In this document: positions 4,019 to 31,191 of the stretch, one piece after another
Position numbering within the stretch: the stretch's first letter is position 1
How the letters are laid out: the number at the start of each line of letters is the position of its first letter
DNA from: Arcticibacter tournemirensis
GTDB lineage: Bacteria; Bacteroidota; Bacteroidia; Sphingobacteriales; Sphingobacteriaceae
Length of the DNA stretch: 64,000 nt
Reading direction: 5' to 3'
NCBI RefSeq assembly: GCF_006716645.1
Contig: NZ_VFPL01000002.1
Span: 186,001 to 250,000 of the forward strand
The notes under the pieces: model-generated
Database searches by the model: none
What the model saw: the letters and a program-made list of their open reading frames with translations, nothing else
What the model was told of the DNA's origin: nothing
Program-made: the position numbers and the translations under genes

Positions 4019-4020
4019 AC

Positions 4021-7000: not shown

Positions 7001-7209
7001 TATGCCCGTTTCTCTTCCTGCGTATTGACCAGCTCATTGAATTCGTTATTTACCATAACCTGGATCTCGCGAATATCAAATTTAGAGGAGGCTTGTTCTT
7101 CGAGTCCCGTAATAATATGATCATAAAGTTCATGGAACACATCCTCATTGATCGACGACTCCTTCAGAAGACTGCGTATTTCCTGTTGCTGCCCGGTGTT
7201 CGGTTTCAT
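4021..7209 (-). CDS. DUF2723 polytopic membrane protein with fused N-terminal extension
   Basis: This 1062-residue protein has a long GT-C-like polytopic region: about a dozen hydrophobic segments between residues 75 and 650, with the family motif FWDCGEFIAASYK near residue 98 and HQPGAP just after. It then has a soluble C-terminal part of about 400 residues with helical repeats. The family (DUF2723) is common in Bacteroidota and is thought to be a membrane glycosyltransferase acting on exported proteins or lipids; that role is inferred. Related proteins normally begin close to the RRMNNALGFVLF segment. Here about 67 extra residues precede it and look like the cytoplasmic N-terminus of membrane proteins encoded next to PadR regulators. 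The start ATG overlaps the padR stop (ATGA), so the two genes are translationally coupled. Confidence 0.85.
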   Translation of the reverse strand: MKPNTGQQQEIRSLLKESSINEDVFHELYDHIITGLEEQASSKFDIREIQVMVNNEFNELVNTQEEKRAYRRMNNALGFVLFGIALLTYWLTMEPTVSFWDCGEFIAASYKMQVGHQPGAPVFLMIANLFSLLAFGDVSKVAYWVNFSAVLASAATIMFLFWTITALALKVYRKEKIKSKATHIFTAGVIGALAFTFSDTFWFSAVEAEVYALSALFTAVTFWAILKWENQQTDRYLVFIAFIVGLSTGVHLLSLLVIPAIALVYYLRQSKNVTTYGLIKALLAGCIIVALVQFVILQYLVLLAAKFDLLFVNSLGLSFGSGALFFLLLLAGTIRWAIYYSIRTRKYKLNLGLICLTFLLLGFSSYFMILIRANAKPAINLSNPDNIFSLYGYLGRSNYGSTPLLYGNTFDAKLMENKVTGNTYRKGKTKYEISGNTYESVFDKNMVFPRIYSQKPGHDTYYRNWLNIGEKDNATFADNLRFFSTWQVGFMYWRYFLWNFSGRQNDIQSQGEIVNGNWVTGIQPLDALHLGSQTNLPQTIKANEAHNRYFGLPFIIGIAGLIWLSRKNKYSSIVLCTLFFFTGLAIILYLNQDPLQVRERDYAYAGSFYTFAIFIGFGVLALKDVFAKVTPARWSMVSAAVICFVAVPVLMGTQGWNDHDRSQKTTARDWARNYLNSCAPNAILFTNADNDTYPLWYAQEVEGIRTDVRVVCIQFLSGDAYINQMKKQLNRSAPLPISMPEEKYVDGLRDYLPYVDYGIQDSVELKELLAVLTSDNKNDQVQMNDGSFMNFLPTKRLKITIDSDQVVNTRTVKPEERSRLAPAIEWEFKKSYATKADLAMFDILATNNWKRPVYFATSVSEDTYLGLDKYLYLEGYAYRLIPFKTKDDGKDKSERTNSDVMYNNVMTKLDYKAFKKAAYLDPESRRIINSTWGFNNTLANNLISEGKADKAKDIMKKSLDELPVRNYTVSDTLARLYTVKNLYALHQIEEANKQAEATAAFLMQELDYIAALSPGFQRGYIENAQVGLYVLSSLDKLTADNHQKKLNRSIRNAFNLQVKNFG

Positions 7210-7544
7210 GATAGTTTGGGGTTAAGGTTGAGTAATAACTGCAGATTACCAATAAAGCTTTTCGCTTCTTCAAGCTTACTTTCCACTTCTTCAAGCCCTT
7301 CTTTCGTAAGCGAATAGTACTTTCTGACACGGTTCTCTACCATCTCGGTGCTCGTACTCAGAATCCCCTCTGCCTCCATCTTGTGGAGTGAAGGGTACAA
7401 AGAACCTTCCGTCAGCTTGATTTCCCCGTTCGTAATTTCTTTAACTTTTTGGGTGATCTCATAGCCATACATCTTTTCATTCTCCTGAAGCAGTTTTAAA
7501 ATAATCGTCTGCAAGCTGCCTTTTAACATTCCATTGGTACTCAT
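7206..7544 (-). CDS. PadR family transcriptional repressor
   Basis: This 112-residue protein is a winged-helix PadR regulator: LKGSLQTIILKLLQENEKMYGYEITQ at the N-terminus, the wing block TEGSLYPSLHKMEAEGIL, then RKYYSLTKEGLEEV and a C-terminal dimerisation helix. PadR proteins repress their own operon by binding a dyad over the promoter. I chose ATG 7544 (MSTNGMLKG) over an upstream in-frame codon at 7574, because a TATATTTG -7 box ends four bases before 7544 and the longer start would lie upstream of it. The gene overlaps the DUF2723 gene by 4 nt and probably controls it. A good TATACATA dyad lies upstream. Confidence 0.9.
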   Translation of the reverse strand: MSTNGMLKGSLQTIILKLLQENEKMYGYEITQKVKEITNGEIKLTEGSLYPSLHKMEAEGILSTSTEMVENRVRKYYSLTKEGLEEVESKLEEAKSFIGNLQLLLNLNPKLS

Positions 7545-7548
7545 TCTG

Positions 7549-7590
7549 CAAATATATAGCTTTCTTTTATACATAGAAAAATTATGTATA
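7549..7590 (-). promoter_or_regulatory. padR promoter with PadR-like operator dyad
   Basis: On the minus strand a -7 element TATATTTG lies at 7556-7549, only four bases before the padR ATG. A TTTC (7579-7576) stands 19 nt upstream as a weak -33 element. An 8-bp perfect dyad, TATACATA (7568-7575) and TATGTATA (7583-7590) with a 7-bp spacer, is centred exactly on that -33 element. ATGT/ACAT dyads are typical PadR-family operators, so autorepression is likely. The short distance also implies a leaderless padR transcript. Confidence 0.6.
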
Positions 7591-7671
7591 TTGATTTTAA
7601 GCTACTTACCAGTTTTATAGCAATCTTAGTACAGAATTATTATATTGATGATGAAATAATGATCTCAAAGA

Positions 7672-10600
7672 TCACCCCTGTAAAGTGCGTCGGCAGCTCT
7701 TCAACTTTTCCATCAGATCACCTACTTTAAAAGGTTTAGAGATAAAATCATCCATTCCGGCCTTCAGGCAATCTTCTTTGTCCTCAACCATAGCGTTCGC
7801 AGTCATCGCTATAATTACAGGCTGGTTGACAGAGAGCTCCCGTATCTTTCTGGTTGCTTCAAGTCCATCCATTTCGGGCATGCGAACATCCATCAGGATA
7901 AGATCATATACATTTCCATCGTTCATACGGATCACTTCCAGACCGTTTTCGGCAAGATCAGGCTGATAACCGAGTTTCTTTAAAACCGTGATAATCAGCT
8001 TCTGGTTTATCAGATTATCCTCAGCAACCAGAATACGAAGAGGTGTCTCTGTCGCGAAATGAACAGAAAGAACATTAGCGGCATTCGCGTTTTCAGGAAC
8101 CGACTTATCTATGGGCCGCTCAAATGCTTTCTCTAGACCGACAAGTAACTTACTAACCGAAACGGGTTTAATAACAATTGAAGAAAAAAGATCCGGGTGT
8201 TTTGATTCCACTCTATTTCTTAAAGAACTCAGCAGGATCACAGGAACAAGGTTATTTATTTCTTTTATTCTTTGGCTCGTGGTGATACCATCCATCCCGG
8301 GCATTTGCAGATCGGTAATAACTAAGTCCAGATCCTTTGTTCCGGTAAATATCCGCAACGCTTCTTCTCCCGACGCCGCTGTAAACACATAAAGCTTATG
8401 CGCTTCTAACTGTCTTTTAAGTATATTAAGATGGGTCTCATTATCATCTACGATGAGTATCTTTTTGCCCTTAAATAGCTTATCAAACGGCATGCTATTT
8501 AAATCATCTGTACTGCCAGAAACCTTCGACTTAATCGTAAAACAAAAAGAAGCGCCAGCACCAGCTGTACTTTTTACAGATATTTCACCGCCCAGCAGCT
8601 TAGTTAACCGCTCACTGATCACCAGGCCTAATCCCGTTCCGCCAAACTTTCTTGTAGACGATGAATCAATCTGCGAGAAAGCATTAAACAATTTTGAAAT
8701 ATTTTCTTCAGAAATGCCAATTCCTGTATCCCTGACTTCAAAACACAGTTCTACCTCTTCGTTTTTCAGCGTTTTTCCCAGAGTCACTGCTACAAGTATC
8801 TCGCCTTCCTTAGTGAATTTCGACGCATTCCCTACCAGGTTTATCAGAATCTGGCGAAGTCTGAACCTGTCGGAGAAAATGAGAGAAGGAACCTTTGGAT
8901 CAATCAGATACATTAACTCGACACCCAATTGTGCTGTTTCGTGAGAGAATAAACTCAACACCTCTTCTATACACTCTCTGAGAGAAAAATACTGACAATC
9001 AAGGCCCATTTTTCCTGATTCTATTTTAGAAAAGTCAAGAATGTCATTAATGAGCGTTAACAACGCCTCGCCACTTGTATTAATGGTTTCTGCATACCCG
9101 CGCTGCTCATGATTAAGGGGCGTTTCGAGCAAGAGTGACGCTGTACCAAGAACACTGTTCATCGGCGTCCGGATTTCATGACTCATTGTAGCTAAAAATG
9201 TACTTTTCGCCTGATTGGCCATTTCTGCTTCTTTTCGGGCTTCCTCTGCCTTTTTCCGGGCTTTCTGCTCCTGTTCCTGCTGCTTCAGGAGCTGTAAGTT
9301 CATTGTATACAGCTGGTCGGATTGTGAATGAAGCTCTTCGGCCTGCACTTGCAGCTCCTCCGACTGAGCCTGAAGTTCCTCCGATTGAGTTTGTAACTCA
9401 CGATTTAAATGTCGCAAGTATTCAGCCTGCCTGCTTATTTGCTCCGTTCGCTGCTGAACTTGTTTTTCGAGCCGGGCCTTCTGTTTTTTTATCAGATCAA
9501 TCCTGAAACGATAGAATGACCATGCGCCAAATCCTATTAGCGTAACAAGCGACAGTCTGAACCACCATGTCATCCAGTATGGCGGTAAAATTACAATCTT
9601 AATAGAAGTATCCCTGTTATTCCATAAGCCCTCGTTATTTGAAGCCTTCACACGGAATATATAGGTTCCGGGATTAAGATTGGTATAGGTTGCTTTTCTT
9701 TCATTCCCTACATAATTCCAGTCCTTATCAAAACCTTCAAGGAAATACGCATATTGGTTCTTTTCAGGAATAGTAAAGTTCAAAGCAGCAAACTGGATCG
9801 TAAATACAGATTGAGAATGAGATAAATGTATTTCCCTGGCGCTCAAAATGCTTTCCTTCAAGGGTGAGTTCTTTTGCCCGACAACGACTTTTCTGTTAAA
9901 CAACTGAAAATCGGTAAGAACTACCGATGGGATATTAGTGTTACGGGCCAGGGAAGCCGGATGAAATATATTAAACCCGCTCACCCCACCGAATATTATA
10001 TCTCCATTCTTCGCTTTTAAGCCGGCGCCAACATTGAATTCGTGACTTTGTAAACCGTTATGAACATTGAAGTTTCTGTAGCTTTCCTTTTTAGGGTCAA
10101 AACAGGTGATCCCCTGGTTGGTGCTTAGCCATATCCTTCCTTGTTCATCACCACTAATATAGTTTATTACATTATTGATCAGACCTTCCTCCTCCGTGTA
10201 CGACTTAAATCTTTTTGTATGGGGATCAAAACGGTTTACTCCTCCTTCCATCGTACCGACCCACATAGTGCCATTTTTGTCTTCATAAAGCGAGCTTACC
10301 ACATTGCTGCTAAGACCGCTGTTCTGGCTATTTAATCTCGTAACCTTCTTTGTTTCAGGACTGACTATACTGATACCACTTGAATAGGATCCTACCCAGA
10401 TATTTCCGCCTTTATCCTCACGCAATGCCTGTACAGTATTATCGCTAATGCTATTATTATCAAGAGAATTATGAACGTATTTTTCAACAATGCCGGTCTT
10501 TTTGTCTAAAACATTAACTCCCCCGCCATCGGTACCTATCCAGATCCGGCCCCTTCTATCCTCTATCAGAGCATACACCGCAATGCTGTTGATATCGGAA

Positions 10601-11970
10601 ATTCCCTTCCCCACTTTATAATGATGAAAAGTACCGTTTCGGGGATTAAAGCTGTTTAGTCCTGTGTCATACGTACCTATCCATATCAGGTCGCTCTCCT
10701 TGTCCTTGAGTAACACAGATATATAGTTGCTGCTAAGGCCATATTTATCGTGAGTGTGCCTGTAAAAAGTGAAGGTCCCGCGCGACCGGTTAAAGTATTG
10801 CAGACCACCGTCGGTTCCTATATAGAGATTGCCTGACGCGTCTTCAGCAAAAGCTCTTACTACATTGTCGGCATTATTCTCGTTCCCGCTGCTAGCCTTG
10901 TAAGACGGAAAAAAAGACAGATTCTTATCGTATTTATTCACACCTTCGGAAGCTGTTCCTACCCATAAAATACCCTGTGGGTCTTCGAGAATAGAATAAA
11001 TACCGTTGTCCGGAATCCAATTTTTATTACTTACACTTTTGTTTATAGGGACAAAAGTCCTTTTCCTGGTGTCAAACAGGTGAAGCTTAGTCTCCGTGCC
11101 TACCCAAAACCGATCTCTGCCACTCTTGGAGATACAATTAATCGGATTGGTTTCATAGCTTGTATTATTATCCGACTCTGTGTTAAAACGTAAGAACTTA
11201 CCTGTTTCCCTGTTCAGCAAGTTTAATCCGGCTCCTGTACCAACCCATAGCTGTCCGCTTCCGTCTTCTCCTATTACGTTTACCGAATTATTGCTTATAC
11301 TATTTATGTCTGCGCGGCTGTAATAGAAATGCTGGAACTTGCCATTTTTTTCATCGAGCAGATTTAAGCCTCTGGAGGTTCCTACCCACATTTTTCCTTT
11401 AGAATCCTGAAAAACAGCATAAACCCGGGGGTTGCTTAAGCTGCCCGGATCAGATGTTTTAAGATAACGTTTAAACGTTCGGGTTTTCCTGTTATATACA
11501 TTTAGCCCCGATTCGGTGCCAACCCACAGCCTGTTCCGCCTGTCTTCGTAGATAAACGTGATCCGGTTGCTGCTTAACGATTTCTCATCCCCTGCTTTTT
11601 CTCTGAAGTTTGTAAAAGAGTTGGTTTTTTGATCATATCTGCTCAACCCGCCAATACGCGTTCCTATCCATATGTAACCGTCTTTCGTCTGATACAGGGC
11701 TGTTATATTGTTGGCCGGCAAGCTTTCAGGATCATTTTTCTTGTATCTATAAACAGTAAAGCTATACCCATCGTATTTATTCAGGCCGTCCTGAGTACCG
11801 AACCACATAAAACCATACTGATCTTTCAGCATACACTGAACAGAATTCTGAGAAAGGCCGTCTGAAGTATTGATCTGGGTAAAATTCAACAACGCTTCCT
11901 GAGAAAACACCCCCGACAAACAGGATATCAATAAAACACCGACAAAAATAAACTCCCTATATAATCTCAT
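7672..11970 (-). CDS. Hybrid two-component sensor kinase (Reg_prop propeller, Y_Y_Y, HisKA, HATPase, two REC domains)
   Basis: The protein has 1432 residues: a signal peptide (about 1-23, ending VFSQ), then many Reg_prop propeller repeats (IWIGT/LWVGT + LN/LSRYD style, about 30-690), a Y_Y_Y domain (about 720-800), one membrane helix near 810, and a Gln/Glu-rich coiled coil (QSEELQAQ-type repeats, about 840-910). These are followed by HisKA with MSHEIRTP (phospho-acceptor H931), HATPase_c, REC1 (D1220 in [12 protein letters not shown]) and REC2 (D1361 in [13 protein letters not shown]). The sensor part is periplasmic and usually reads oligosaccharides. Family members that control polysaccharide loci generally end in an AraC-type DNA-binding domain. 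This one ends after REC2 and has no HPt domain, so its output must go through another protein. No glycan operon adjoins it directly. Confidence 0.93.
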
Positions 11971-12230
11971 CCAGGTTCTCTTAGACGCACCTTAAAAACT
12001 TAAGGTATCGGTTAAAGGAGGTGAATAGCACTTTATCTCCCTGCTAAGGTTCAGTTGAAAAGATTTATCATACATTCCCTCAAATGAATAATATCTTAAA
12101 AAGCCGCGATTCCTTTTTCTATCCCGGCAATACGAGCAATTTACTAAAACTTTTACTATCAAACAAAATAGGCAACAGGTATTATTTTCAAAAGAAAAAA
12201 CCTATCCAGTTTTACTTCAGATGCCTTTAT

Positions 12231-13424
12231 TCAGGAATAAAACGGAATCATCCAAAGCAATTTGCCTGCTTCAAACACATCCTCCTCTGCAGGCAATGTA
12301 ACAAAACCCTCCGCCTTCACAAGGCCAGTCAGGTCACCAGACCCCGATCCGGTTACCGGTACGGCCTCCAAAACGCCCGCTATATTTCTCAGAGAAACCA
12401 TCAGGTGATAAGAGAGCCTGGGTTTAAAAGCAACAGGTTCAGCCAGCCTGACGGGGACATACACTACAGGGGTTTCAAGTGATTGGCAGAGCCAGTACCG
12501 GAAGTAAAGATGATAGCACACAAAAGTCGACACCGGATTACCAGGAAAGCCAAACACCAATTTCCCGGATTCGAAGCTGCCGAACAGAATGGGCTTGCCG
12601 GGTTTCTGAGCCACTCTATGAAACACGGTATTTAAGCCAAGGGAAAGCAACACTTCAGGCAGGAAGTCAAACTTCCCCTTAGATACAGCGCCCGAGAGCA
12701 AAAGAACATCGAATTGTTTAACAATAGCTTTGAGTCCATCAGTCAAAATGAATTTGTCATCCGGAAAATGGAATACTTCTGCACGAATACCTTCAGTCAT
12801 CAACGCAGATGCGATCATGTGCACATTTGATCTCCGCACCTGGAATGGTTCAGGTGTTGCCTCAACATCTACAAGCTCATCGCCGGTAGAGCAAACAGCC
12901 ACAGTCGGAGTCCTCTTCACGACGACCTTATTTTTGCCTGTTGAAGCCAAAACGCCAATATGAGAGGCGTTAATCCTTACGCCTTTCTCAATAAGTAAAC
13001 TTCCAGCCTTGCTGTCAGTACCCCTTAAATGCACGTTCTGGAACTTCCTTACTGTATCGGCTTTAATGAAAGCTTTTCCTTCACCGATAAGAATATCTTC
13101 ATAAGGTATAACACCATCTGTACTTTGGGGCAATACAGCCCCGGTCATTACTTCGATACATTTATGCGGATCGTCAAGAACCTGAACCCGGTCACCCGCC
13201 GCCTGAATTTTCTCTAAAGCAAACGACCTTCTGCCTTGTTCAAATGAGGTTACATTGATAGCGATTCCATCCATAGTAACCCTGTCGTAAGGAGGGAAGT
13301 CGCGGTCCGCCTGGATGTCTTCTGCCAGGATCCGGTGAAGGGCATCAGACAGCGACACCTCTTCAGTTCCAAAATCTTTCTTGAACGACTCAATCTTTTC
13401 AAGAGCTTCTTGTACAGAAATCAT
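12231..13424 (-). CDS. moeA: Molybdopterin molybdenumtransferase MoeA
   Basis: This 397-residue enzyme inserts molybdate into adenylylated molybdopterin. Typical MoeA blocks are present: MISVQEALEKI at the start, FPPYDRVTMDGIAI near 60, EVMTGAVLPQSTDGVIPYED near 110, TGDELVD near 187, LLLSGAVSKGKFDFL near 250 and FGFPGNPVSTFVCYHLY near 305, then a short C-terminal barrel domain. I chose ATG 13424, which follows the preceding tauE-like stop (TAA, ending 13426) by one base. An earlier in-frame ATG at 13433 would overlap it. It is the last gene of the molybdopterin operon. Confidence 0.93.
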   Translation of the reverse strand: MISVQEALEKIESFKKDFGTEEVSLSDALHRILAEDIQADRDFPPYDRVTMDGIAINVTSFEQGRRSFALEKIQAAGDRVQVLDDPHKCIEVMTGAVLPQSTDGVIPYEDILIGEGKAFIKADTVRKFQNVHLRGTDSKAGSLLIEKGVRINASHIGVLASTGKNKVVVKRTPTVAVCSTGDELVDVEATPEPFQVRRSNVHMIASALMTEGIRAEVFHFPDDKFILTDGLKAIVKQFDVLLLSGAVSKGKFDFLPEVLLSLGLNTVFHRVAQKPGKPILFGSFESGKLVFGFPGNPVSTFVCYHLYFRYWLCQSLETPVVYVPVRLAEPVAFKPRLSYHLMVSLRNIAGVLEAVPVTGSGSGDLTGLVKAEGFVTLPAEEDVFEAGKLLWMIPFYS

Positions 13425-13425
13425 T

Positions 13426-14211
13426 TTATACATCAATTCCGTTAGTGTATTTTAACACCAGTTTTACTCCAATATAAGCAACCAGTACCCCTGTCAGCGC
13501 CTTTAGCAGCCCTGGTCTTACTATTTTAAGACTGAGCCTGGTACCAACCTGTCCACCAAGAAAAACAGCGGTAAGCAGCGGCAGCATCAGCTGTATATTA
13601 AACGTAAAGGTTCCTCCGCTCGCCTGCCCGGCCAGCCCGGCTATAGAATTCACAAGAATAAAAAAACTCGCAAGCGCAGCAATCTTTTTCGGAGTATCCC
13701 AGCTCATTAAGTTGAGTACAGGCGACAGAAGAATTCCTCCCCCGATACCCACAAGTCCTGAAAGAAATCCCGCAGCTGCGCCAAGTACCGCATTGACTGG
13801 CAAGGAGGAGACACGGTTACCCAATCCCGGTTCAGCCGGCCGGGTTTGTGTATACAGTTGCATGATGAGTAATAATCCCGACAGCGTAAGCACACTTCCC
13901 AGACAAATGAAAAAGGACTTCTGGCTAAGGTGAATAGTGGCAGCTACAAAAGCCGCAGGAATACTACAGATAGCCAGGGGAAGAAATTTCTTTTTATCGA
14001 AATAACCATTTTTCATAAAGAGGTACGAACTGCCAGCAACAACTACCAGATTACAGAACAGAGCAGCTGTTTTAATAGCCGAAAAATCACCTATAAAAAG
14101 GGACAGCAATGCAAGGTAACTTGACCCTCCACCAAAGCCGGCTGAAGAATATAATGCAGCGATAATAAAAAAGCCGATGCAGATCAGAAAAACAGTGTGA
14201 ATGTCGGGCAT
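13426..14211 (-). CDS. TauE/SafE family membrane transporter
   Basis: This 261-residue protein has about eight hydrophobic segments and the glycine-rich blocks of the TauE/SafE family (SSAGFGGGSSYLAL near 23, LSGLVGIGGGILLSPVL near 152). The family moves sulfite, sulfonates or other small organic anions. The ATG at 14211 shares one base with the upstream moeB stop (TGATG), and the stop lies one base before moeA, so it is fully embedded in the molybdopterin operon. That position suggests handling of sulfur or an oxyanion linked to cofactor making, but the substrate cannot be read from the sequence. Confidence 0.85.
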   Translation of the reverse strand: MPDIHTVFLICIGFFIIAALYSSAGFGGGSSYLALLSLFIGDFSAIKTAALFCNLVVVAGSSYLFMKNGYFDKKKFLPLAICSIPAAFVAATIHLSQKSFFICLGSVLTLSGLLLIMQLYTQTRPAEPGLGNRVSSLPVNAVLGAAAGFLSGLVGIGGGILLSPVLNLMSWDTPKKIAALASFFILVNSIAGLAGQASGGTFTFNIQLMLPLLTAVFLGGQVGTRLSLKIVRPGLLKALTGVLVAYIGVKLVLKYTNGIDV

Positions 14212-15320
14212 CAATATTCTATAAATTCATCATTAAAATGGCTCATCCAGCTTTCCATTCCGCCCCGGAGGTTATAAACCTTTGTGTTTTTTCTCTGCTG
14301 CAAGATTTCCGCTGCTTTAAGGCTTCTCCCTCCCATCTGGCAAAACGTTACCAGGGGAACATTTGCAGGCAATTCCATTTCAAATTTGTTTAACTGAGCC
14401 AGAGGAACGGAAAATGCATGCATGAGATGTCCGCTTTCATATTCGAAAGTTTCCCTCACGTCCACCAGTAGAAATTTTTTACCTTCCAGGTACCATTCAT
14501 GCAGGTTCTGCGGGGATAAGTCATTTACCGTTTGACAAGCAAACTCATAACTATCCCGCAAACGATCAATATTCTGATTTTCAGGGCTGGCCTTCAGCCT
14601 GACCTTATATTCATTACCACTTAAAAAATCAACAATCTTAAGGCTGCCGGAAAGAGTCCTGCCTATGCCTGTAATCACTTTAACGGCCTCCAGGGCTTGT
14701 AAAGATCCGACGATACCGGGCACTATACCAAGTACGCCGGCTTCGTTACAGTCTGGCACTTCCCCGGGCGACGGCTGTTCGGGATAAAGACAGCGATAAG
14801 TAGGCCCGCCCTGGTAATTAAAAACACTTAGCTGGCCTTCATACTGCTGAACGGCCCCATAAATAAAGGGCTTGCCGGCAATAACACAAGCATCATTAAT
14901 AAGATAACGACTCGCAAAATTATCAGTGGCATCCACTACAAGATCAACAGCTTCGATCAAACTTAAGGCATTCTCAGGTGTAAGCATCCAGGGATGCCAT
15001 TCGATCTTTACCAGCGGATTCAATTCTGCCAGCTTCTTCGCAGCCACTTCTGCCTTTAGCTGCCCTACTTCCGGAGTGGAGTAGAGAACCTGCCGCTGTA
15101 AATTACTAACGCTGATGCGATCTCCATCCGCAATAACGATCCGGCCAATACCCATACCCACCATGTACTGAAGAACAGGGATGCCCAGTCCCCCGGCTCC
15201 CACCACAAGCACAGAAGCAGCCTTTAGCTTATCCTGTGCCGCCGGGCCAAACCCCTTAAGGCGGATCTGCCGGGTGTATCTCGTATCATCATCGTTCATT
15301 TTGAATTTCGCATTGTCCAT
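14211..15320 (-). CDS. moeB: MoeB/ThiF-type E1 enzyme fused to a rhodanese domain
   Basis: This 369-residue fusion has an N-terminal adenylating domain (about 10-245) with the nucleotide motif VVGAGGLGIPVLQYM and the NLQRQVLY block, followed by a rhodanese domain (about 270-369) with the active-site loop FCQMGGRS. The E1 domain activates the C-terminal Gly-Gly of MoaD with ATP, and the rhodanese would hand over sulfur as a persulfide on its Cys, giving thiocarboxylated MoaD for molybdopterin synthase. The fusion joins two steps that other bacteria split between MoeB and a separate sulfurtransferase. The usual pair of CxxC zinc motifs is not evident: only single Cys residues (RCLYP, PDCNEAG) are seen. 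It lies 5 bp after moaA. Confidence 0.9.
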   Translation of the reverse strand: MDNAKFKMNDDDTRYTRQIRLKGFGPAAQDKLKAASVLVVGAGGLGIPVLQYMVGMGIGRIVIADGDRISVSNLQRQVLYSTPEVGQLKAEVAAKKLAELNPLVKIEWHPWMLTPENALSLIEAVDLVVDATDNFASRYLINDACVIAGKPFIYGAVQQYEGQLSVFNYQGGPTYRCLYPEQPSPGEVPDCNEAGVLGIVPGIVGSLQALEAVKVITGIGRTLSGSLKIVDFLSGNEYKVRLKASPENQNIDRLRDSYEFACQTVNDLSPQNLHEWYLEGKKFLLVDVRETFEYESGHLMHAFSVPLAQLNKFEMELPANVPLVTFCQMGGRSLKAAEILQQRKNTKVYNLRGGMESWMSHFNDEFIEY

Positions 15321-22269: not shown

Positions 22270-23355
22270 CTAAAACTTCACCCTTTTCCCCATGAGCTTG
22301 CTGGTATCAATAGCCGTTTCTTTAGCAATGGCCGAGTGCCCGCTCATCTCCCGGAGTTTCTCCCTTACGATTTGATCCATTTCCTGCAGCTGCTGCTGTC
22401 GTTCCTGACCCGAAAGCCCCGGGCTCTCTTCTGCTTCGATGGACTTTCGCTCACCGCCCGCTGCCGCCCGCTGCTTTCGCATACTGCTCTGGAAGCCGTT
22501 CCCCCGGTAACCCGCCATGATCTGGATACGCGGAGCGACGCCCGATGCTGTTGCCTCTTCATGGTGCTGTATGGCCCTGCTCTCCCCGTATCCTGCCTCT
22601 GCTTCATCTTCCGACTGGAAGGCCGCGATCAGGCTTACCGGGTTAAAGTCCTTACTGTTGAGGGGCTCCTGCTCGTATGTATAGATGTTCGCTGCCATGC
22701 ATTCCAGCATGCCCAGCACCAGCAGCAGGCAGCCTTTGGGTACTTCCTGTTCAAATACCAGCTCTTGAGCGGCATTCAGGCCGCTGCTTTCCATGACGAT
22801 CTTCTTCTCGCCGATATACTCATAGAACTCTTCCTTGAAGTTAAAACCTACCAGTACAAAGCTGAGCCGGTAACCGGTAACCCTGTAATGTCCCTTAAAG
22901 GGAGTGACAAAGTCCCTGCGGGGATCGATCTCCGGCAGGCTGATCGTTACCTGTCCCTTCTCATTACGCCTTACCTGTGGCCGGATCTGCAGCACCTGCG
23001 AGAACTTGCTGTATTCATTGAACTCCAGTCCCTCCAGGAATGAGAGCTCCCCGTCGTGCAGGTCGCGATCACCACGCTCCCGGCTGCGGCTGCCCCGGAT
23101 GGCGCGCGAGACCGCGGCCGTCATGCGGTTGACCATCCCTCCATCGTAAAAGTGATGATAAAAGGGCCGGAAGGCTTCCCTGAGAATTTTGGATGCCTGA
23201 CTGATCAGTCCGAATTCTCCGGCAGCCTCCTGGCTGGCCTGGGTTTGTTTGAAGCGCCGGGGACGGCCCTGAACGATGTTCATCCCCCGGTAGCTGCGGT
23301 ATACCACGGAGCCTGCAGTGCCGTGGATGCCGCCTTTACTATCGATTACTGCCAT
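22270..23355 (-). CDS. Unknown GC-rich gene
   Basis: The 361-residue product has no signal peptide or membrane segment. The N-terminus (IHGTAGSVVYRSYRGMNIVQ) resembles the opening of Bacteroidota families of the DUF6266 kind, which often occur in several copies. A central part (about 130-240) has beta-rich hydrophobic blocks such as YRLSFVLVGFNFKEEF and GCLLLVLGMLECMAANIY. The C-terminus is charged with runs of Glu, Gln and Arg (RQQQLQEMDQIVREKLREM). I chose ATG 23355, preceded by AGGAGG at an 8-base distance, over an upstream Met at 23388. GC content is clearly higher (near 60% by eye) than in the neighbours (mid 40s), and strong Shine-Dalgarno use is unusual for this phylum. Both suggest transfer or a mobile paralogous family. 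Function unknown. Confidence 0.75.
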   Translation of the reverse strand: MAVIDSKGGIHGTAGSVVYRSYRGMNIVQGRPRRFKQTQASQEAAGEFGLISQASKILREAFRPFYHHFYDGGMVNRMTAAVSRAIRGSRSRERGDRDLHDGELSFLEGLEFNEYSKFSQVLQIRPQVRRNEKGQVTISLPEIDPRRDFVTPFKGHYRVTGYRLSFVLVGFNFKEEFYEYIGEKKIVMESSGLNAAQELVFEQEVPKGCLLLVLGMLECMAANIYTYEQEPLNSKDFNPVSLIAAFQSEDEAEAGYGESRAIQHHEEATASGVAPRIQIMAGYRGNGFQSSMRKQRAAAGGERKSIEAEESPGLSGQERQQQLQEMDQIVREKLREMSGHSAIAKETAIDTSKLMGKRVKF

Positions 23356-23665
23356 ATATTTCCTCCTTTTTTTAATTGCTTCAGCCATCAGCAGCTGGCA
23401 CAGGGCAGGGTTAGGACGGTAACACGATGCGGAGGTCGGCGGCTTTAGCTGATGTAAAGTAAAGTTGATAAGAACTGCAAAAAGATGAAACAGGTATTTG
23501 CAATTTATAATCAGTTTAAACTAAACGATTGATTCCCTTTGGTTTGAGTTGTTCTGGCAATCCAAGCAAAGGCATAGGCAGGAGCCTCCCGGCTCCGCGA
23601 GTGGTCTGCTACTGCGTATCCCCTGGCTATCTGTATTTCTTCACATCAGGGTGGCTCAGCGTATA

Positions 23666-23976: not shown

Positions 23977-26900
23977 ATGAAACACCTTTTACTTATCCTG
24001 AATCTGATTATCCTTATCTCGTCGACGCACGCTCAAAAGCCGCTTACAAACAGCAGACAGAGCAGCTATTACACTTATATTTATCGTTTGGACGACGAGA
24101 CCGTCAAGCGGTTTTATTCCAAAAAGATCTTGACCAATGAGATCGCCGGTCATCCCCTCGACTCGTTCCTCACAGATAAGCCCCGGCCCCTTCACCTGCA
24201 GCCAGGTAATTATCTTGAAGTACACGCATTAAAAAACAAACTTCAGTATAAACTTCTGCAACGGCGATCAGCATATTTGAAGATACTTGAAAACAGGCAT
24301 GACCTGCAGTTTGTGCTGAGCAGCGTTAATGGCGAAAAAGTTGAAGATGCCCAGGTTTATCTTGAAGGACGTAAGATCCCTTTTGATCCCGAAAGACAAC
24401 TGTACCATACACGGAGACCCCGGAAAAACCAGCTTCTCCAAATTAAGCATCAGGGGATAAGCAACTATTACAGCCTCACCTCAAAACCGGAATACCGTTA
24501 TTCCTATAAAAAACCTGGTTTATTCTCCCGGTTATGGAATTTTGTAAAAAAGCCCTTCCGGAAAAAACAAAAAGGCAGACCCTATTACTATACTCCGCCA
24601 GTCAATCCGGGGTTCCTTGTTTTCAACAAGCCTGTTTACCGGCCCGGCGATACAGTTAAGCTGAAGGCTTTTATTCTCGACAAAAAGTCGAAAAAGCCTA
24701 TAAGATATCCGAAGCTTCTTGTGAGATTAAAAGACGACCCATGGGATAACGGAAAGATCATTGGCTATGTAAACGCCTATCGTCCGGGAGGCTTTGAATA
24801 TGAATTCAAACTAACCGATAGCCTGGATCTCGATCTGGACGATGATTATACAGTCAGTCTCGAAACCCTTGAGAGCGCGAAATACGACCTTGATGAATAC
24901 GACGGTGACCTTGAGGACCGGGAGTATTTAATGAAACGCACAGTCTTTCAGGCAAGCAACTTCCATTACGAGGATTACGAGTTAAAGACCAACCGCTTCG
25001 CTATGCGAGCTGATAAAACCGGCCATTCTCCGGGAAGCCCTATCTCGCTATATTTTAAAGCGACAGATGAAAATGACCTGAACGTTGCTGATGGAAGGAT
25101 TGAGCTGACGCTAATGAGCCGGAACAGTAGGAATTACAAAGAAAACACTGTGTTTATCCCGGATACCTTGTGGCAGCATCAAATGCAATTGGACGCAACA
25201 GGAGAAACAAAACTGGTAATTCCCGATTCTATATTCCCAAAAGCAGATCTGGACTTTACAGCTGACGCGGTTTTCCTGAATGCAAATAACGAAAGACTGA
25301 ATGACCTCAAATATCTGTCGTTCAAGTCTGAAAGCAAAGAGATTGATGCGAAACTGGACGGTGATACTTTGAAAATAAACTATCGTATCGGAGGCAAAGA
25401 GATTCGGACGACCGCCATGCTCGCTGTTTGCAATGCAAATAACGACACCCTATTGGTTAAAAAAATACAGTTACCGGCCCGCGAACTGCTTGGTCAGGGC
25501 GCTGACGTTTATTCCGTAAGCGTTGATTCGTACACGAAGGCGTTTAGCGTACGAAGTTTCCCCGCCGAACTATCAGCGTCAGGCTATCGCAATGCCGACT
25601 CGCTCTTTATTAAGGTTTCTAATCCGCGAAAATTAAATTTCTGGTACACCGTTTTTTCAGGAAAGAAAATCGTACTACAGGGTAAAACCAATAATCTTAA
25701 TTATGCCCATCCTTTTAAAGAGAAAAAAAATGTCTCGGTTCTGCTCAACTTCCTCTGGGGCGGAGAACCGGCACAACAGGAGATACAGGTCCCTTACCAG
25801 GATAAACTGCTGAGTATTCAAACCAGCCAGCCCCTTACCGTTTATCCCGGCCAACAGATAAATATTGAAGTCGACGTGAAAGATGCTTCAGGGAAACCCG
25901 TCGCGGGAGCCGACATTACTGGTTACTCGTTTACCCGTAAATTTCAAAACGCCACCGTCCCCTTTATACCCTACCTCGGCAGAGTCTATCCATACAGAAC
26001 ACTTTCCAATCCGGTTACTATTGGAAAGCTCCAGGAAAGTGGCGAACTTAAATTGAACTGGCAGCGATGGAGTAAAGAAATGGGCCTTGACAGCATAGAG
26101 CACTATAAATTCACTCATCCATCAGCTATTTACCGAATCGGGGAGCCCGCACCCGATAGCATCACTCAGATCGCACCGTTTGTTGTAAAAGACGGCGATA
26201 TCCTTCCTGTGCATATCCTGTACATTGATGAAAAGCCCGTCTATTTCAGCCAAACGACACATCTCCAGCGTTATTCATTCAGAGTAGAGCCCGGGTCTCA
26301 TAAAGTTCGCTTCAGGACCAAAAACATGATGATTACCCTGGACAGCGTCATTGTTACGAAGGGCGAAAAACTTATTCTCTCCTTAAATGGCGATATGCAG
26401 AACAACACCTCTGCCAAATTTGTAAAACAAGCGAAAGTTTTAAGTTCATACGAGGCTACTCTGATTAATAAATACCTCATCAGCGTGGTTAATAATTTTG
26501 GAGACCGTTTCGCCACAATAGAGCAGAGCAACAGTATTTTCCTTCTGAATACCGAAAGTTCGGATAACTATGGCATCAGGCCCCATAGCGATGCAGTACT
26601 AACCGGCCCGTATAATGGCCTTGCAGTGCGGTTTACACGAAAGGACTCCCAGCCGGTGTATTTCAATCCGGAACCAGGGTACTCATTCGAGTTTCAACCC
26701 GGCCTGCTGAAACAGAAGTCGCTGGATGAAAAATATCCTTTCAGTTTGTACCTGGATAACAATACATCCAATGGTAATGATTATACGCAGTACGCGCTTA
26801 CCGGCGGGGAGGTGGATACGCTATGGCAATATTATCTTGATCTCAGAAGCCATACCACCCGCCTGTTCAGAAATGAGTACTTATCTGGAAGGGGTACAGG

Positions 26901-29784
26901 AAGACTAATTATCAAGGTAGATACCCTGAATACAGGAAAAGTCCCTTTTGTAAAAAACATTATTGTTTATAAAAAAGGTGATCCTGATTTTATGAAAATC
27001 TTTCCCGGAAATACAACGGACCTTCAGAATTATAGTCCGGGTATTTACAGGGTCTTCTACCTTCTGAAAGGGAATAAATACATTCTCCAGGATAACGTCC
27101 GGATCAGAGCTAACGGAACAAATTACTACAGCACCGGAAAACCCGATATTCTGCCGGCAGATGCTGTGAGCTTTAATATTGCAAAGGTCATTGAAAACAA
27201 GAGCAGATTAAATGGTAGTAACCAAGAGGACGAGTCCTCGCAATTGATAAAAGAGGTATTTAACGAAAAATATCTGGATACAGGGACATTTACAGGGTTG
27301 ATGAGCGGAGCAGTATACGACAAAAAAGATAAAACTCCCATTCCTGGAGTTACTGTTAAAGTAAAAGGAACTTCTGCCGGGACAACTACAGATATGTCCG
27401 GCCGCTTTTCCATCAAGGTTCCCTCGTCGGGCAAGCTTCAGATAATGCTTATAGGTTATGAAACAAAAGAAGTAAGCATACAAAATGGAGGTACCGCCGA
27501 TGTTTACCTGTCAGAGAGCCATCTTTCACTTGATGAAGTGGTGGTCGTGGGTTATGGCGCACAAAAGAAAACAGCAGTAACTGGTGCTGTTTCTGTTATG
27601 TATGACAGACTGGAGGGCGTGCAGATCCGTGGCGTCGCTTCCTCCGCTTCAGGAAGCCCGTTGATTATTGTTGACGGTGTTCCATATGCAGGAAACATGG
27701 CAAGCCTGGATCCTTCTCTGATTGGAGAAATGAATATATTGAAAAATGAAGCCGCTACAGCACTGTATGGTTCCCGGGGGGCAAATGGCGTAATTCTAAT
27801 AAGCACAAAAAAGAAGGTGGGGAAAGCTGGAGCAGGAGAAGCACAGCCAGAACAGCAACCAATTTTCCGGAGAAACTTCGCGGATTACGCCTTCTGGCAG
27901 CCGCGGTTAAGAACTGACGAACAAGGCAAGGCCAGCTTTACCGTTACCTTTCCTGATGATATTACCAACTGGCGTACCTTCTTTATAGGAATGAGTGGCA
28001 ATAAGCAAAGCGGCTATGCTGAAGGGCAGATCAAATCTTACAAATCTATTAGTGCCAGCTTTACATCGCCATTGTTTGCAGTCCGCGGAGATACGTTTGA
28101 ACCGGTTGGCAAGATCATGAACTATACTACCGATACCATCAGTCTGAACCGCAGTTTCAGCTTCAACGGAAAGCTCATGAAAGAAGATACTTTTAGAATT
28201 ACGAATTCAAAAATAGACACTTTCAGGATTCAGGCAGAAGGGAAAGACAGCCTGCATTTTGAATATTCCATTAAACGACCGACCGGATATTTCGACGGAG
28301 AAAGGCGGTCAATTCCCTTATATGAGAGAGGAGTACTGGAAACAAAGGGCGTTTTTGAAACCCTTGAAAAAGACACCTCCATATCGCTACGCTTTGATCC
28401 GAAACTTGGGAAGGTCACTCTCCGGGCAGAAGCCTCTCTCCTGCCCGTGCTACTGGAAGAAACTAACCGGCTACGGAAGTATGAATATCTCTGTAATGAA
28501 CAAATTGCGTCTAAACTCAAGGGACTTCTGGCTGAGAAAAAGATAAGAGCTTATCTGAAGGAGCCTTTCAAACATGAAAAAGACATCAATGAACTGATTA
28601 AGAAACTACTTGAAAACAGGAGGAAAGAAGGTACATGGGGATGGTGGAAGGATACAAGTGCGGAGTTATGGATCAGTTTGCATGCTGCCGAAGCCTTGCT
28701 CGAGGCCGACGCAATGGGTTATAGAACCCAGATTGACAAGCAGAAACTGATAGACTACCTGATATATGAAGTAAGCTTTTTGAAGGGGCAAAACAAATTG
28801 ACAGCTATAGAACTGCTGAGCACATTGAATGCGAAAGCTGATTTTAAATCGTTGATAAAAGACTACGAGAGATCGCTTTCACCTAAACAGAAAATAACGG
28901 CGTATGAAAAGATGAAACTTATGCGAACCAGACAAAGGGCCGGACTACCGGTTTTAACTGATAGCCTTCTTAAAACAATACGTTATACTATGTTTGGGAA
29001 TGCTTACTGGGGCGAGCAGCGATATCTTTTCTTCGACAACTCCATACAACTTAGTATCCTGGCTTACCGGATCCTCCGCGAAGACGGAAAGCACACTGCG
29101 CTTTTAAGCAAAATAAGGAACTACTTCCTCGAGCAACGAAAAGACGGGCAATGGCGGAACACTTACGAATCGTCTTTGATCCTTGAGACCATTCTTCCTG
29201 ACATTCTTAAAGACGGAAAGACGCCAGAACCAGCTTCTCTTATACTTTCAGGGGAAAGGAATGAAACAGTTACACGTTTTCCGTATACAGCGATGCTCGA
29301 TAACAACGCGAAATTAACTATTGAGAAGAAGGGGGAATTTCCGGTTTACCTAACAGCTTATCAGCAGTTTTTTAACTCTTCGCCGGCAAAAACAAACAAG
29401 GACTTTACTGTAAATACTTCGTTTGAAAAAGACGAAAACAAACTGAACGAGCTGAAGGGCGGACAACCCGTTGTACTTAAAGCTGACGTAATTGCCCGGG
29501 CTGACGCAGACTATGTAATGATTGAGATACCCATACCTGCCGGTTGTTCCTACGAAAGCAAAGAACAGTCCTATTCATACACAGGAAGCGAAGTGCACAG
29601 GGAGTATTTCAAAAATAAAGTGAGTATCTTTTGCAATAAGCTAAAAGCAGGACGATATAGCTATAGCATAAAGCTGGTCCCCCGCTACACCGGAACCTAT
29701 ACCCTCAATCCTGCAAAAGTAGAAATGATGTACTTCCCGGTATTTTTCGGACGTGAAGAAATAAAACAAATTCGGATTAAGTAA
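23977..29784 (+). CDS. Alpha-2-macroglobulin-like protein with inserted SusC-type CarboxypepD/plug segment
   Basis: The product has 1935 residues with a signal peptide (about 1-19, ending STHAQ). An N-terminal region of macroglobulin-like beta domains follows, including an MG2 block (PGFLVFNKPVYRPGDTVKLK, about 210-310) and another MG-type block near 620-700. Residues about 1105-1190 are a CarboxypepD_reg-like domain (GAVYDKKDKTPIPGVTVKVKG). Next comes a TonB-box-like DEVVVVGYG (about 1185-1193) and a plug domain (about 1195-1280, LIIVDGVPYAG, ALYGSRGANGVILIS), exactly as at the start of SusC receptors but without a barrel. The A2M domain follows (FWQPRLRTDEQGKASFTVTF, about 1300-1400), then a thioester motif C1506-N-E-Q1509 at the start of a helical toroid region, and a C-terminal receptor-binding-like domain. 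It probably acts in the periplasm or at the outer membrane as a protease trap or surface protein. The role of the plug is unknown. Confidence 0.88.
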   Translation: MKHLLLILNLIILISSTHAQKPLTNSRQSSYYTYIYRLDDETVKRFYSKKILTNEIAGHPLDSFLTDKPRPLHLQPGNYLEVHALKNKLQYKLLQRRSAYLKILENRHDLQFVLSSVNGEKVEDAQVYLEGRKIPFDPERQLYHTRRPRKNQLLQIKHQGISNYYSLTSKPEYRYSYKKPGLFSRLWNFVKKPFRKKQKGRPYYYTPPVNPGFLVFNKPVYRPGDTVKLKAFILDKKSKKPIRYPKLLVRLKDDPWDNGKIIGYVNAYRPGGFEYEFKLTDSLDLDLDDDYTVSLETLESAKYDLDEYDGDLEDREYLMKRTVFQASNFHYEDYELKTNRFAMRADKTGHSPGSPISLYFKATDENDLNVADGRIELTLMSRNSRNYKENTVFIPDTLWQHQMQLDATGETKLVIPDSIFPKADLDFTADAVFLNANNERLNDLKYLSFKSESKEIDAKLDGDTLKINYRIGGKEIRTTAMLAVCNANNDTLLVKKIQLPARELLGQGADVYSVSVDSYTKAFSVRSFPAELSASGYRNADSLFIKVSNPRKLNFWYTVFSGKKIVLQGKTNNLNYAHPFKEKKNVSVLLNFLWGGEPAQQEIQVPYQDKLLSIQTSQPLTVYPGQQINIEVDVKDASGKPVAGADITGYSFTRKFQNATVPFIPYLGRVYPYRTLSNPVTIGKLQESGELKLNWQRWSKEMGLDSIEHYKFTHPSAIYRIGEPAPDSITQIAPFVVKDGDILPVHILYIDEKPVYFSQTTHLQRYSFRVEPGSHKVRFRTKNMMITLDSVIVTKGEKLILSLNGDMQNNTSAKFVKQAKVLSSYEATLINKYLISVVNNFGDRFATIEQSNSIFLLNTESSDNYGIRPHSDAVLTGPYNGLAVRFTRKDSQPVYFNPEPGYSFEFQPGLLKQKSLDEKYPFSLYLDNNTSNGNDYTQYALTGGEVDTLWQYYLDLRSHTTRLFRNEYLSGRGTGRLIIKVDTLNTGKVPFVKNIIVYKKGDPDFMKIFPGNTTDLQNYSPGIYRVFYLLKGNKYILQDNVRIRANGTNYYSTGKPDILPADAVSFNIAKVIENKSRLNGSNQEDESSQLIKEVFNEKYLDTGTFTGLMSGAVYDKKDKTPIPGVTVKVKGTSAGTTTDMSGRFSIKVPSSGKLQIMLIGYETKEVSIQNGGTADVYLSESHLSLDEVVVVGYGAQKKTAVTGAVSVMYDRLEGVQIRGVASSASGSPLIIVDGVPYAGNMASLDPSLIGEMNILKNEAATALYGSRGANGVILISTKKKVGKAGAGEAQPEQQPIFRRNFADYAFWQPRLRTDEQGKASFTVTFPDDITNWRTFFIGMSGNKQSGYAEGQIKSYKSISASFTSPLFAVRGDTFEPVGKIMNYTTDTISLNRSFSFNGKLMKEDTFRITNSKIDTFRIQAEGKDSLHFEYSIKRPTGYFDGERRSIPLYERGVLETKGVFETLEKDTSISLRFDPKLGKVTLRAEASLLPVLLEETNRLRKYEYLCNEQIASKLKGLLAEKKIRAYLKEPFKHEKDINELIKKLLENRRKEGTWGWWKDTSAELWISLHAAEALLEADAMGYRTQIDKQKLIDYLIYEVSFLKGQNKLTAIELLSTLNAKADFKSLIKDYERSLSPKQKITAYEKMKLMRTRQRAGLPVLTDSLLKTIRYTMFGNAYWGEQRYLFFDNSIQLSILAYRILREDGKHTALLSKIRNYFLEQRKDGQWRNTYESSLILETILPDILKDGKTPEPASLILSGERNETVTRFPYTAMLDNNAKLTIEKKGEFPVYLTAYQQFFNSSPAKTNKDFTVNTSFEKDENKLNELKGGQPVVLKADVIARADADYVMIEIPIPAGCSYESKEQSYSYTGSEVHREYFKNKVSIFCNKLKAGRYSYSIKLVPRYTGTYTLNPAKVEMMYFPVFFGREEIKQIRIK

Positions 29785-30465: not shown

Positions 30466-31191
30466 TTAACTGAGCACCTCTTCTAAAACAAGATGCGACC
30501 TGATTTCACCCAGGCTGTCGATGTGTAAATGATAGTATTCTAACATTTTAGTCAGGAGCTCCTTCCTTTCTAAAGAGCTCAGCTTCACTTGCTCCAGAGT
30601 TTCAGTGTTACAGGATAACAGATTTACAAAATGATTAACCAGACTCCCCTGTATAAAATGAAGGTGCAACGGCAGCTCCTTTGTAAACACCCCGTTTTTA
30701 AGGTCAAAATATAGAGATCCCGATGATGACCTGCTTTGAGGATAAAACCCCAGGTACCTGGTTAACTTTAATAAAAACCATAGATGGTAATTTGCAAGAC
30801 CTTTAGTGAGATGATCGAGCACTTCAATGCTTTGACTTAAAAATTCAAACAGCCTTTCATCTGCAGAATGCTGCCGTATACTTCGATAAAGAACTTCATT
30901 CAAAAAGATAGCAAGCGAGCTCTTCACAACATCATAAGGAATGCTCTCGAAAACCGGATCGTTCCTTAGTTCTGAAATTCTCTGAATGTTGCCAGAAGGC
31001 TTGTGATAGACGATCATATCCAGCAAATGCAGGGGTTGCAGCATATTCATGCGTATTCTCCCTTTAGATTTTTTTACTCCGCTGATAAGATATGACTGCA
31101 TGCCGAACTTCTCGGTAAATACCTGCACTATCACACTGCTTTCCGAATAGTCGGTAGTCTTTAAAACAATTCCCCGGGTTTTATGAAGCAT
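30466..31191 (-). CDS. recO: DNA repair protein RecO
   Basis: This 241-residue protein helps load RecA in the RecFOR recombination pathway. The N-terminal OB-fold begins MLHKTRGIVLKTTDYSESSVIVQVFTEKFG, a typical RecO opening. The helical C-terminal part lacks obvious zinc Cys residues, as in many Bacteroidota members. It overlaps the upstream dgkA-type gene by one base (TGATG). Confidence 0.93.
   Translation of the reverse strand: MLHKTRGIVLKTTDYSESSVIVQVFTEKFGMQSYLISGVKKSKGRIRMNMLQPLHLLDMIVYHKPSGNIQRISELRNDPVFESIPYDVVKSSLAIFLNEVLYRSIRQHSADERLFEFLSQSIEVLDHLTKGLANYHLWFLLKLTRYLGFYPQSRSSSGSLYFDLKNGVFTKELPLHLHFIQGSLVNHFVNLLSCNTETLEQVKLSSLERKELLTKMLEYYHLHIDSLGEIRSHLVLEEVLS

Follow-up and report, generated by a model that had tools for sequence, protein, structure and literature searches.

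The closest described systems are, on the one hand, the type I alpha-2-macroglobulins (A2Ms) of Escherichia coli (ECAM, YfhM) and Salmonella and, on the other hand, the SusC/RagA proteins, of which BT1763 and BT3090 are examples. E. coli-like bacterial A2M genes adjoin pbpC. In the complement components C3, C4 and C5 the anaphylatoxin domain sits between the two halves of MG6. The known role of TonB is to energize the uptake of substrates through barrels of the outer membrane. Parts of PMC4498604 describe the bait of E. coli A2M as lying inside an MG domain, with Arg923 to Leu942 disordered, and bait cleavage as the trigger. For BT1763, parts of PMC7782687 report that deletion or mutation of the TonB box abolishes function, the box being needed for levan uptake, and that the N-terminal extension (NTE) is of unknown function, with a choice among TonB orthologues suggested by its authors.

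Here we describe an A2M gene that lies in a window (the whole stretch of DNA that was analysed) of 64,000 nucleotides from Arcticibacter tournemirensis. With the A2Ms of E. coli and Salmonella its product has the A2M domain, bMG10, a split bait-bearing MG domain and CxEQ in common (Z 15.2 and 15.1 for the model), whereas it carries no lipobox by pattern and, in place of a short bait, about 640 residues between the MG halves with an NTE, a TonB box and a half-plug. The NTE fold, the TonB box, the SusC signature and the second plug half are common to SusC/RagA proteins, from which the product differs by a contracted plug front and by having no barrel. Chains of C3, C4 and C5 occur among the structural matches of the model, but these are animal plasma proteins and their inserted domain is unrelated. 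Both the A2M and the SusC family are already known; no A2M with SusC, plug or TonB-box parts was among the open-licence papers listed, and neither the combination nor its family-wide retention and one-sided restriction on the A2M tree was found there.

The gene and its domain organization

The features of the open reading frame (ORF) are as follows.

23977..29784, + strand: A2M ORF of family A, ATG start, 1935 aa (ORF listing, Pfam, full-length relatives)
23977..24036, + strand: aa 1-20, presumed signal peptide (judged type I by eye; the lipobox pattern has no match)
25795..25953, + strand: about aa 607-659, first half of the MG domain that bears the bait (model against E. coli A2M 4ziq, presumed boundary)
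25954..27864, + strand: stretch between both MG halves, about aa 660-1296 (model, presumed boundary)
27298..27534, + strand: SusC-type NTE (CarbopepD_reg_2), aa 1108-1186 (Pfam, model, 9hfj match)
27529..27558, + strand: TonB box LDEVVVVGYG, aa 1185-1194 (alignment, pattern; identified via BT1763 in parts of PMC7782687)
27559..27648, + strand: contracted plug front with IRG, predicted disordered, aa 1195-1224 (model, length comparison)
27649..27810, + strand: second plug half, predicted folded, aa 1225-1278 (Pfam Plug 1211-1272, SusC signature 1249-1278, model)
27811..27864, + strand: linker, predicted disordered, second candidate cleavage stretch, aa 1279-1296 (model, linker lengths)
27889..28143, + strand: A2M domain of Pfam, aa 1305-1389, comprising the second half of the MG that bears the bait and the MG that follows (Pfam, structural alignment)
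28492..28503, + strand: thioester motif CNEQ, aa 1506-1509 (sequence)
29431..29739, + strand: bMG10 domain, aa 1819-1921 (Pfam E 2.1e-17, above cut-off)

The A2M domain PF00207 is found above its cut-off (E 6.5e-15), and animal A2Ms match the ORF at about aa 1296-1393 in a search of the sequences of solved structures. MG2 at aa 212-253 scores 26.7 bits, below the Pfam cut-off of 32.8. Judged by its sequence, the product is a thioester-type A2M with A2M domain, bMG10 and CNEQ.

The SusC pieces are equally clear in Pfam, with CarbopepD_reg_2 at aa 1110-1190 (E 7e-21) and Plug (E 3e-8), the latter covering profile positions 44-107 of 107 only. The SusC/RagA signature TIGR04057 reaches 46.3 bits (cut-off 46.2), and solved SusC homologues match inside aa 1109-1288. 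The model for a whole SusC, TIGR04056, scores 179 against a cut-off of 368 (NCBIfam), so that the ORF is not a SusC, and neither Pfam nor NCBIfam finds an outer-membrane barrel domain in the ORF, whose frame continues into the A2M part. The original prediction, an MG/A2M protein that holds CarboxypepD, TonB box, plug and CNEQ and has no SusC barrel, is thereby borne out except for its claim of a complete SusC start. The distance from the TonB box to the DG motif is 39 residues in the ORF compared to 62 to 75 (median 71) in the SusCs of the same genome, as far as measurable by pattern (21 out of 26; the measurement failed for five). In family A it is 39 to 71 (median 55; 65 out of 76 measurable, failing for 11), and 57 of these 65 lie below the SusC minimum. 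The plug front is thus contracted.

An AlphaFold2 model of aa 600-1400 was made from a 70-sequence alignment (mean pLDDT 82, pTM 0.58). Its residues 8-801 align to residues 854-1068 of E. coli A2M over 162 residues (rmsd 4.2), the model being about 580 residues longer than the aligned stretch. Human A2ML1, A2M and CD109 also align, less strongly. Together with the location of the E. coli bait, this alignment indicates that about 640 residues, the SusC pieces last, split the bait-bearing MG domain at a presumed break point. The insert had been proposed to occupy the bait position, which agrees with this alignment.

Within the insert the NTE was modelled at high confidence, its best solved match being the NTE of the SusC BT3090 (9hfj, TM 0.84 of target, Z 14.9). 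The region aa 1184-1225, with the TonB box inside, and the linker 1279-1297 are predicted to be disordered. Between them, aa 1225-1274 form a small strand-helix-strand unit with a pLDDT of about 90 if modelled alone and about 80 in context; the plug half is modelled as a small domain of its own between the MG halves, a point that the original prediction had proposed to check. The Foldseek and VIA-align match lists for the insert were filled by the NTE, and the missing plug match there is uninformative.

Counting ORFs of 150 aa or more, the gene is flanked by one of 372 aa (22270-23388, overlapped by a 235-aa ORF) and one of 241 aa (30466-31191). The immediate neighbors are too small for PBP1C, and pbpC does not adjoin the A2M ORF. 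A Bacteroidota-type promoter pattern gave no match before the A2M gene and 4 matches in the 64-kb window, where 3.2 are expected by chance. By eye, the neighboring ORFs at the loci of relatives are unrelated, the exception being L024 and L025, which have neighbors in common. The same genome encodes two further A2Ms: one of 2099 aa (L016:2392-8691, +), assigned to family B, with an NTE in the bait stretch and without CxEQ, and one of 1870 aa (L133) with CVEQ and without SusC pieces.

Relatives and conservation of the insert

Relatives were searched with the part after the insert only (alignment A1), a query that does not select for the insert. Out of 335 relatives found in genome contigs the best 78 loci were kept, which represent the nearest relatives and not a random draw; they span Mucilaginibacter, Pedobacter, Pararcticibacter, Chitinophaga, Niabella, Rufibacter, Pontibacter, Saprospiraceae and others. 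Three loci were left out, namely L060 (broken frame), L094 (partial) and L069 (tandem copies, wrong copy taken), leading to 76 sequences with that of the window. Of these, 71 exceeding 1750 aa were aligned, and 70 remained in alignments A2 and A3 after L086, a near copy of L083, had been dropped. As side observations, L069 holds two tandem family A-like A2M genes (2694-8441 and 8483-14248) in Pedobacter psychroterrae, and the family A A2M that Niabella hibiscisoli encodes in L060 extends over more than one frame, either a broken gene or a sequencing error.

Pfam finds the NTE in 70 out of 70 inserts and Plug in 67 out of 70 at E <= 0.001, that of the window included. Our own models of NTE, box and plug derive from family A sequences; Pfam supplies the count that is independent of them. 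With full-length relatives in other genomes, these counts argue that the insert is neither chance nor an assembly artefact, and at the level of sequence the architecture is conserved in family A. The thioester motif claimed originally holds up as well, CxEQ being kept in 78 out of 78 loci (77 CNEQ, 1 CSEQ). Individual members deviate: the plug half is lost in L081, the TonB box has degenerated in some Pedobacter members (L063, L068 and L074 among others), and L064 has no box any more. The gene is patchy, as a homologue at E <= 1e-100 occurs in 7 out of the 60 nearest genomes, its own genome counted.

In the core of the TonB box, L-x-E-V-V-V-x-G-Y-G, the commonest residue is kept in 67 (L), 61 (E), 60 (V), 60 (V), 62 (V), 69 (G), 66 (Y) and 57 (G) of 71 family A sequences. 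One position inside the core varies (commonest residue in 42 out of 71), and the stretch after the box varies more. Such conservation in a loop predicted to be disordered resembles a short motif that is bound. Pooled over 11 pairs of near relatives, and rough because dS was high or undefined in several of them, pN/pS is 0.25 for aa 30-606, 0.28 for 661-1107, 0.33 for the NTE, 0.51 for 1187-1216, 0.34 for the half-plug, 0.33 for the linker and 0.12 after the insert. The stretch 1187-1216 thus has the highest value of the seven segments and as a whole evolves faster than its neighbors. Folded domains together with a conserved motif in a disordered loop speak for use rather than decay. Separately, three pairs (L030/L088, L066/L072, L048/L050) show, outside the TonB-box stretch, dN of about 0.2-0.5 before the A2M domain and 0.04-0.06 after it, which suggests mosaic genes that arose by recombination.

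Lengths within the insert are steady for the NTE (79, sd 1.0) and the linker after the plug (20, sd 2.7). The plug had been proposed as the bait. The site agrees with this, but not the plug itself as the part that is cut, as the kept half is predicted to be folded; the likelier cleavable parts are the disordered stretches at about aa 1184-1225 and 1279-1297. In its simple form, a plug that serves as disposable bait, the idea was rejected in view of the steady NTE and linker lengths, the pN/pS of 0.33-0.34 for NTE and half-plug and the good model confidence. Two points count against the rejection: the half-plug segment of the alignment varies more in length (median 69, range 27-101, sd 8.4), and dS was high or undefined in several of the 11 pairs.

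Distribution among A2Ms of Bacteroidota

A survey of 118 genomes of Bacteroidota with PF00207 at E <= 1e-6 gave 63 places in 49 genomes. All 63 were read, the A2M of the window and L016 among them; together with 11 family A representatives they make up an A2M tree of 74 proteins. Two families, A with 12 rows and B with 20, form one clade each (starred, 100); most rows of B begin with 'ETAFF'. Both stand on the same side of the tree as L167, whose place on a long branch is unsure; the 41 others make up the other side. SusC pieces (NTE, TonB box or plug) are present at the bait site in all 12 members of A, in 15 out of 20 of B (two of which, L117 and L119, count by a weak partial NTE match of 22 and 19 bits alone), in L167 and in none of the 41 others, corresponding to 17 out of the 63 survey places. 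SusC pieces at the bait site of A2Ms thus recur in Bacteroidota, where the original prediction had proposed to look for the architecture. Within the 74 proteins the SusC module is, by its sequence matches, restricted to one side of the tree.

Three motif patterns, all composed after the inserts had been seen, give a similar picture. The TonB-box pattern was found at the bait site of 11 out of 12 members of A, 10 out of 20 of B, L167 and none of the 41 others, and not once in the 121,871 residues elsewhere in the 74 proteins. LxGkvAGv occurs in 5 out of 12, 4 out of 20 and 0 out of 42, with no match elsewhere in these residues, and IRGxxS in 6 out of 12, 5 out of 20 and 1 out of 42 (L167), with two matches elsewhere. 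In four members of family B (L122, L124, L129, L135) a piece that in SusC comes after the TonB box precedes it. Of the three members of this family scanned with Pfam, L127 was confirmed for NTE and Plug and L016 for the NTE; L135 has no Pfam Plug at E <= 0.01, yet reaches 78 bits with the family A plug model. On the tree, where L084 was entered by hand as a bearer of the box with the variant NEVVIRGY, 6 changes are needed for the box, 3 for the plug and 5 for the NTE. Independent gains of the module in families A and B were considered and not retained, an ancestral module with losses fitting equally well.

A further hint arises from the membrane anchor. The lipobox pattern has no match in the first 90 residues of the A2M ORF and matches in 24 out of 41 A2Ms of the other tree side, where by eye 6 more and 4 membrane anchors can be added. 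Among the 28 module-bearing rows it matches one (L057, probably an ordinary signal peptide), and none of the 17 survey A2Ms with the module. Module and lipobox hardly overlap, and a link between the module and an absent lipid anchor is suggestive. This link, which rests on few evolutionary events, is confounded by ancestry, as A and B share one tree side and of the five members of B that lack the module only L121 matches the pattern, the other four also being without lipobox.

SusC pieces in other proteins without a barrel

The genome of the window encodes further non-receptor proteins with SusC pieces and no barrel, namely VWA/YfbK-type, anti-sigma-like and M56/BlaR1 proteins and the second A2M. 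Like the A2M ORF, the first three hold NTE, TonB-box-like motif or half-plug in hosts that are otherwise unrelated. A VWA/YfbK protein (L017:799-2700, -) has an NTE, the TonB-box-like EVVIVGHG and IMIRGASSG; a protein that is anti-sigma-like by eye (L017:3406-4677, +) has an NTE, two TonB-box-like motifs and one TonB_C. Both genes adjoin a gene that by eye is sigma-factor-like. An M56/BlaR1 protein (L020:2976-4859, -) has two TonB_C matches and, at its very end, a half-plug of 22.0 bits, slightly below the Pfam cut-off of 23.9.

In 14 VWA loci, the own one included, the NTE model matches 12, two of them weakly, and the TonB-box model 4. In 12 distinct M56 loci with an ORF picked by script, again including the own one, 9 have a match to the half-plug model, and L215, L217 and L218 have two each. 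In M56/BlaR1 proteins the half-plug stands at or near the end. These matches make the half-plug look like an independent domain.

Origin of the module

For an insert tree, 37 of the 76 family A inserts were combined with 26 SusCs of the same genome. L073 and L104 fall among the SusCs, and the RGY-type inserts L031, L056, L059, L084 and L093 have their own branch. The host tree scatters these five rows (4 changes, at least 3 of them forced by starred branches). A single clade of all 37 sampled inserts was not rejected (AU p 0.63), and the tree held to it had the higher likelihood. If these seven rows are removed, which were picked after the tree had been seen, the remaining 30 of the 37 inserts stand on one side of a branch and the 26 SusCs on the other (starred, 95).

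Recapture of the module from SusC genes was rejected on this AU result and because five of the seven outliers (L056, L059, L084, L093, L073) have another A2M insert as their best match. The insert of L104 comes closer to a SusC (46%) than to any of the other A2M inserts (43%). For L031 the values are 44% and 39%, a biased comparison in that the SusC had been fetched as the best match of L031 itself. Exchange between SusC and A2M genes is therefore a lead for these two and not a result. Overall, the sequences fit one old capture and perhaps a few later exchanges.

A search of the own genome with the whole protein gave 176 matches, nearly all of them, among the matches listed, to the SusC part. 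As an observation aside, two SusC genes end early (L019:2157-3839 and L018:1451-3118), the one followed by an ORF that by eye is IS21-transposase-like and the other overlapping an ORF that by eye is glycoside-hydrolase-like.

Possible function of the insert

SusC pieces including a TonB box in the trigger region suggest that the trap may be docked to, or controlled by, the import motor. The reading that we prefer, tentatively and at somewhat less than an even chance, is a soluble trap, most likely periplasmic, with a TonB-type domain bound to its bait loop. The bait site would host a 'handle' from SusC, made up of the NTE, the TonB box and half a plug. A TonB-type protein would bind the exposed box in the bait loop through its C-terminal domain, and the NTE may supply specificity for the partner. 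The trap would then be docked at those energy complexes of the inner membrane by which the large SusC pores are opened, a docking that may replace the lipid anchor of other bacterial A2Ms. A protease entering the periplasm would cut the disordered loop or the linker, and this cut would free the tether, spring the A2M and link the protease to the thioester. In favor of this reading are the position of the insert, the conserved box in a loop predicted to be disordered, the need of BT1763 for this motif, the pattern matches confined to the bait site, the near exclusion of module and lipobox, and the barrel-less bearers in the own genome, two of which (M56/BlaR1 and anti-sigma-like) have TonB_C. 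The degenerate box in part of Pedobacter and its loss in L064 rule out that TonB binding is essential everywhere, and plain TonB docking leaves the retention of the half-plug (67 out of 70) and the reordered pieces of family B unexplained. The ancestry behind the anchor link and the raised pN/pS of 1187-1216 also count against it. The original wording, by which a protease trap is joined to a nutrient-uptake module, goes too far, as the pore-forming barrel is absent and transport is not indicated.

The main rival is a decoy, which we consider somewhat unlikely: the insert would mimic the periplasm-facing end of SusC, so that a protease attacking SusCs would cut the A2M in their place and be caught. 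The bait position of the insert from the structural alignment agrees with this, the flexible end that SusC exposes is among the parts mimicked, and none of the other six segments has a pN/pS as high as the stretch 1187-1216. The short SusC motifs of changed order in the presumed bait of L122, L124, L129 and L135 could be read as a string of cleavage sites, and a decoy accounts for these shuffled pieces better than TonB docking does. The insert of L104, and in the biased comparison that of L031, also stands nearer to SusC than to A2M inserts. However, NTE and half-plug are predicted to be well folded and would make a poor bait, the NTE is nearly fixed in length, unlike ordinary bait regions, which vary in length, and we know of no protease that attacks SusCs in this way. 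Unlikely in our view is a passive insert, in which SusC pieces entered a tolerant bait site long ago, fold alone and serve as a structural spacer, with the flanking linkers as bait. The single origin of family A modules, which was not rejected, would fit, as would the very unequal fractions of the module kept in family B (5 out of 20 with none), the NTE as sole remainder in the second A2M, and raw material in plenty given how common SusC-like stretches are in the genome. A spacer accounts for the least of the conservation, though, with the box core kept in 57-69 out of 71 sequences in a loop predicted to be disordered and the three SusC motifs at the bait site having 0, 0 and 2 matches elsewhere.

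That the trap docks not to TonB but to a barrel of the outer membrane, or to some other partner recognizing SusC plugs, appears very improbable to us. Such docking would give a role to the half-plug, kept so widely in family A and present at or near the end of M56/BlaR1 proteins, twice in three of them, but with the front contracted in 57 out of 65 measured relatives the plug would hardly occupy a barrel the way it does in SusC. A bolder extension of the preferred TonB reading, which we regard as quite doubtful, is a gated trap: energised TonB would grip the bait loop and hold, cock or release the macroglobulin at SusC import pores, and the handle (NTE, TonB box, LxGkvAGvxIRG, half-plug), which M56/BlaR1, VWA and anti-sigma-like proteins carry as well, would serve Bacteroidota as a general code for addressing proteins to TonB, beyond transport.

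If TonB binding of the bait loop is true, the TonB system would control or place proteins that transport nothing. The finding bears on the role of the NTE of SusC, whose function is described as unknown in parts of PMC7782687, and on the retention of bacterial A2Ms that have no lipid anchor.
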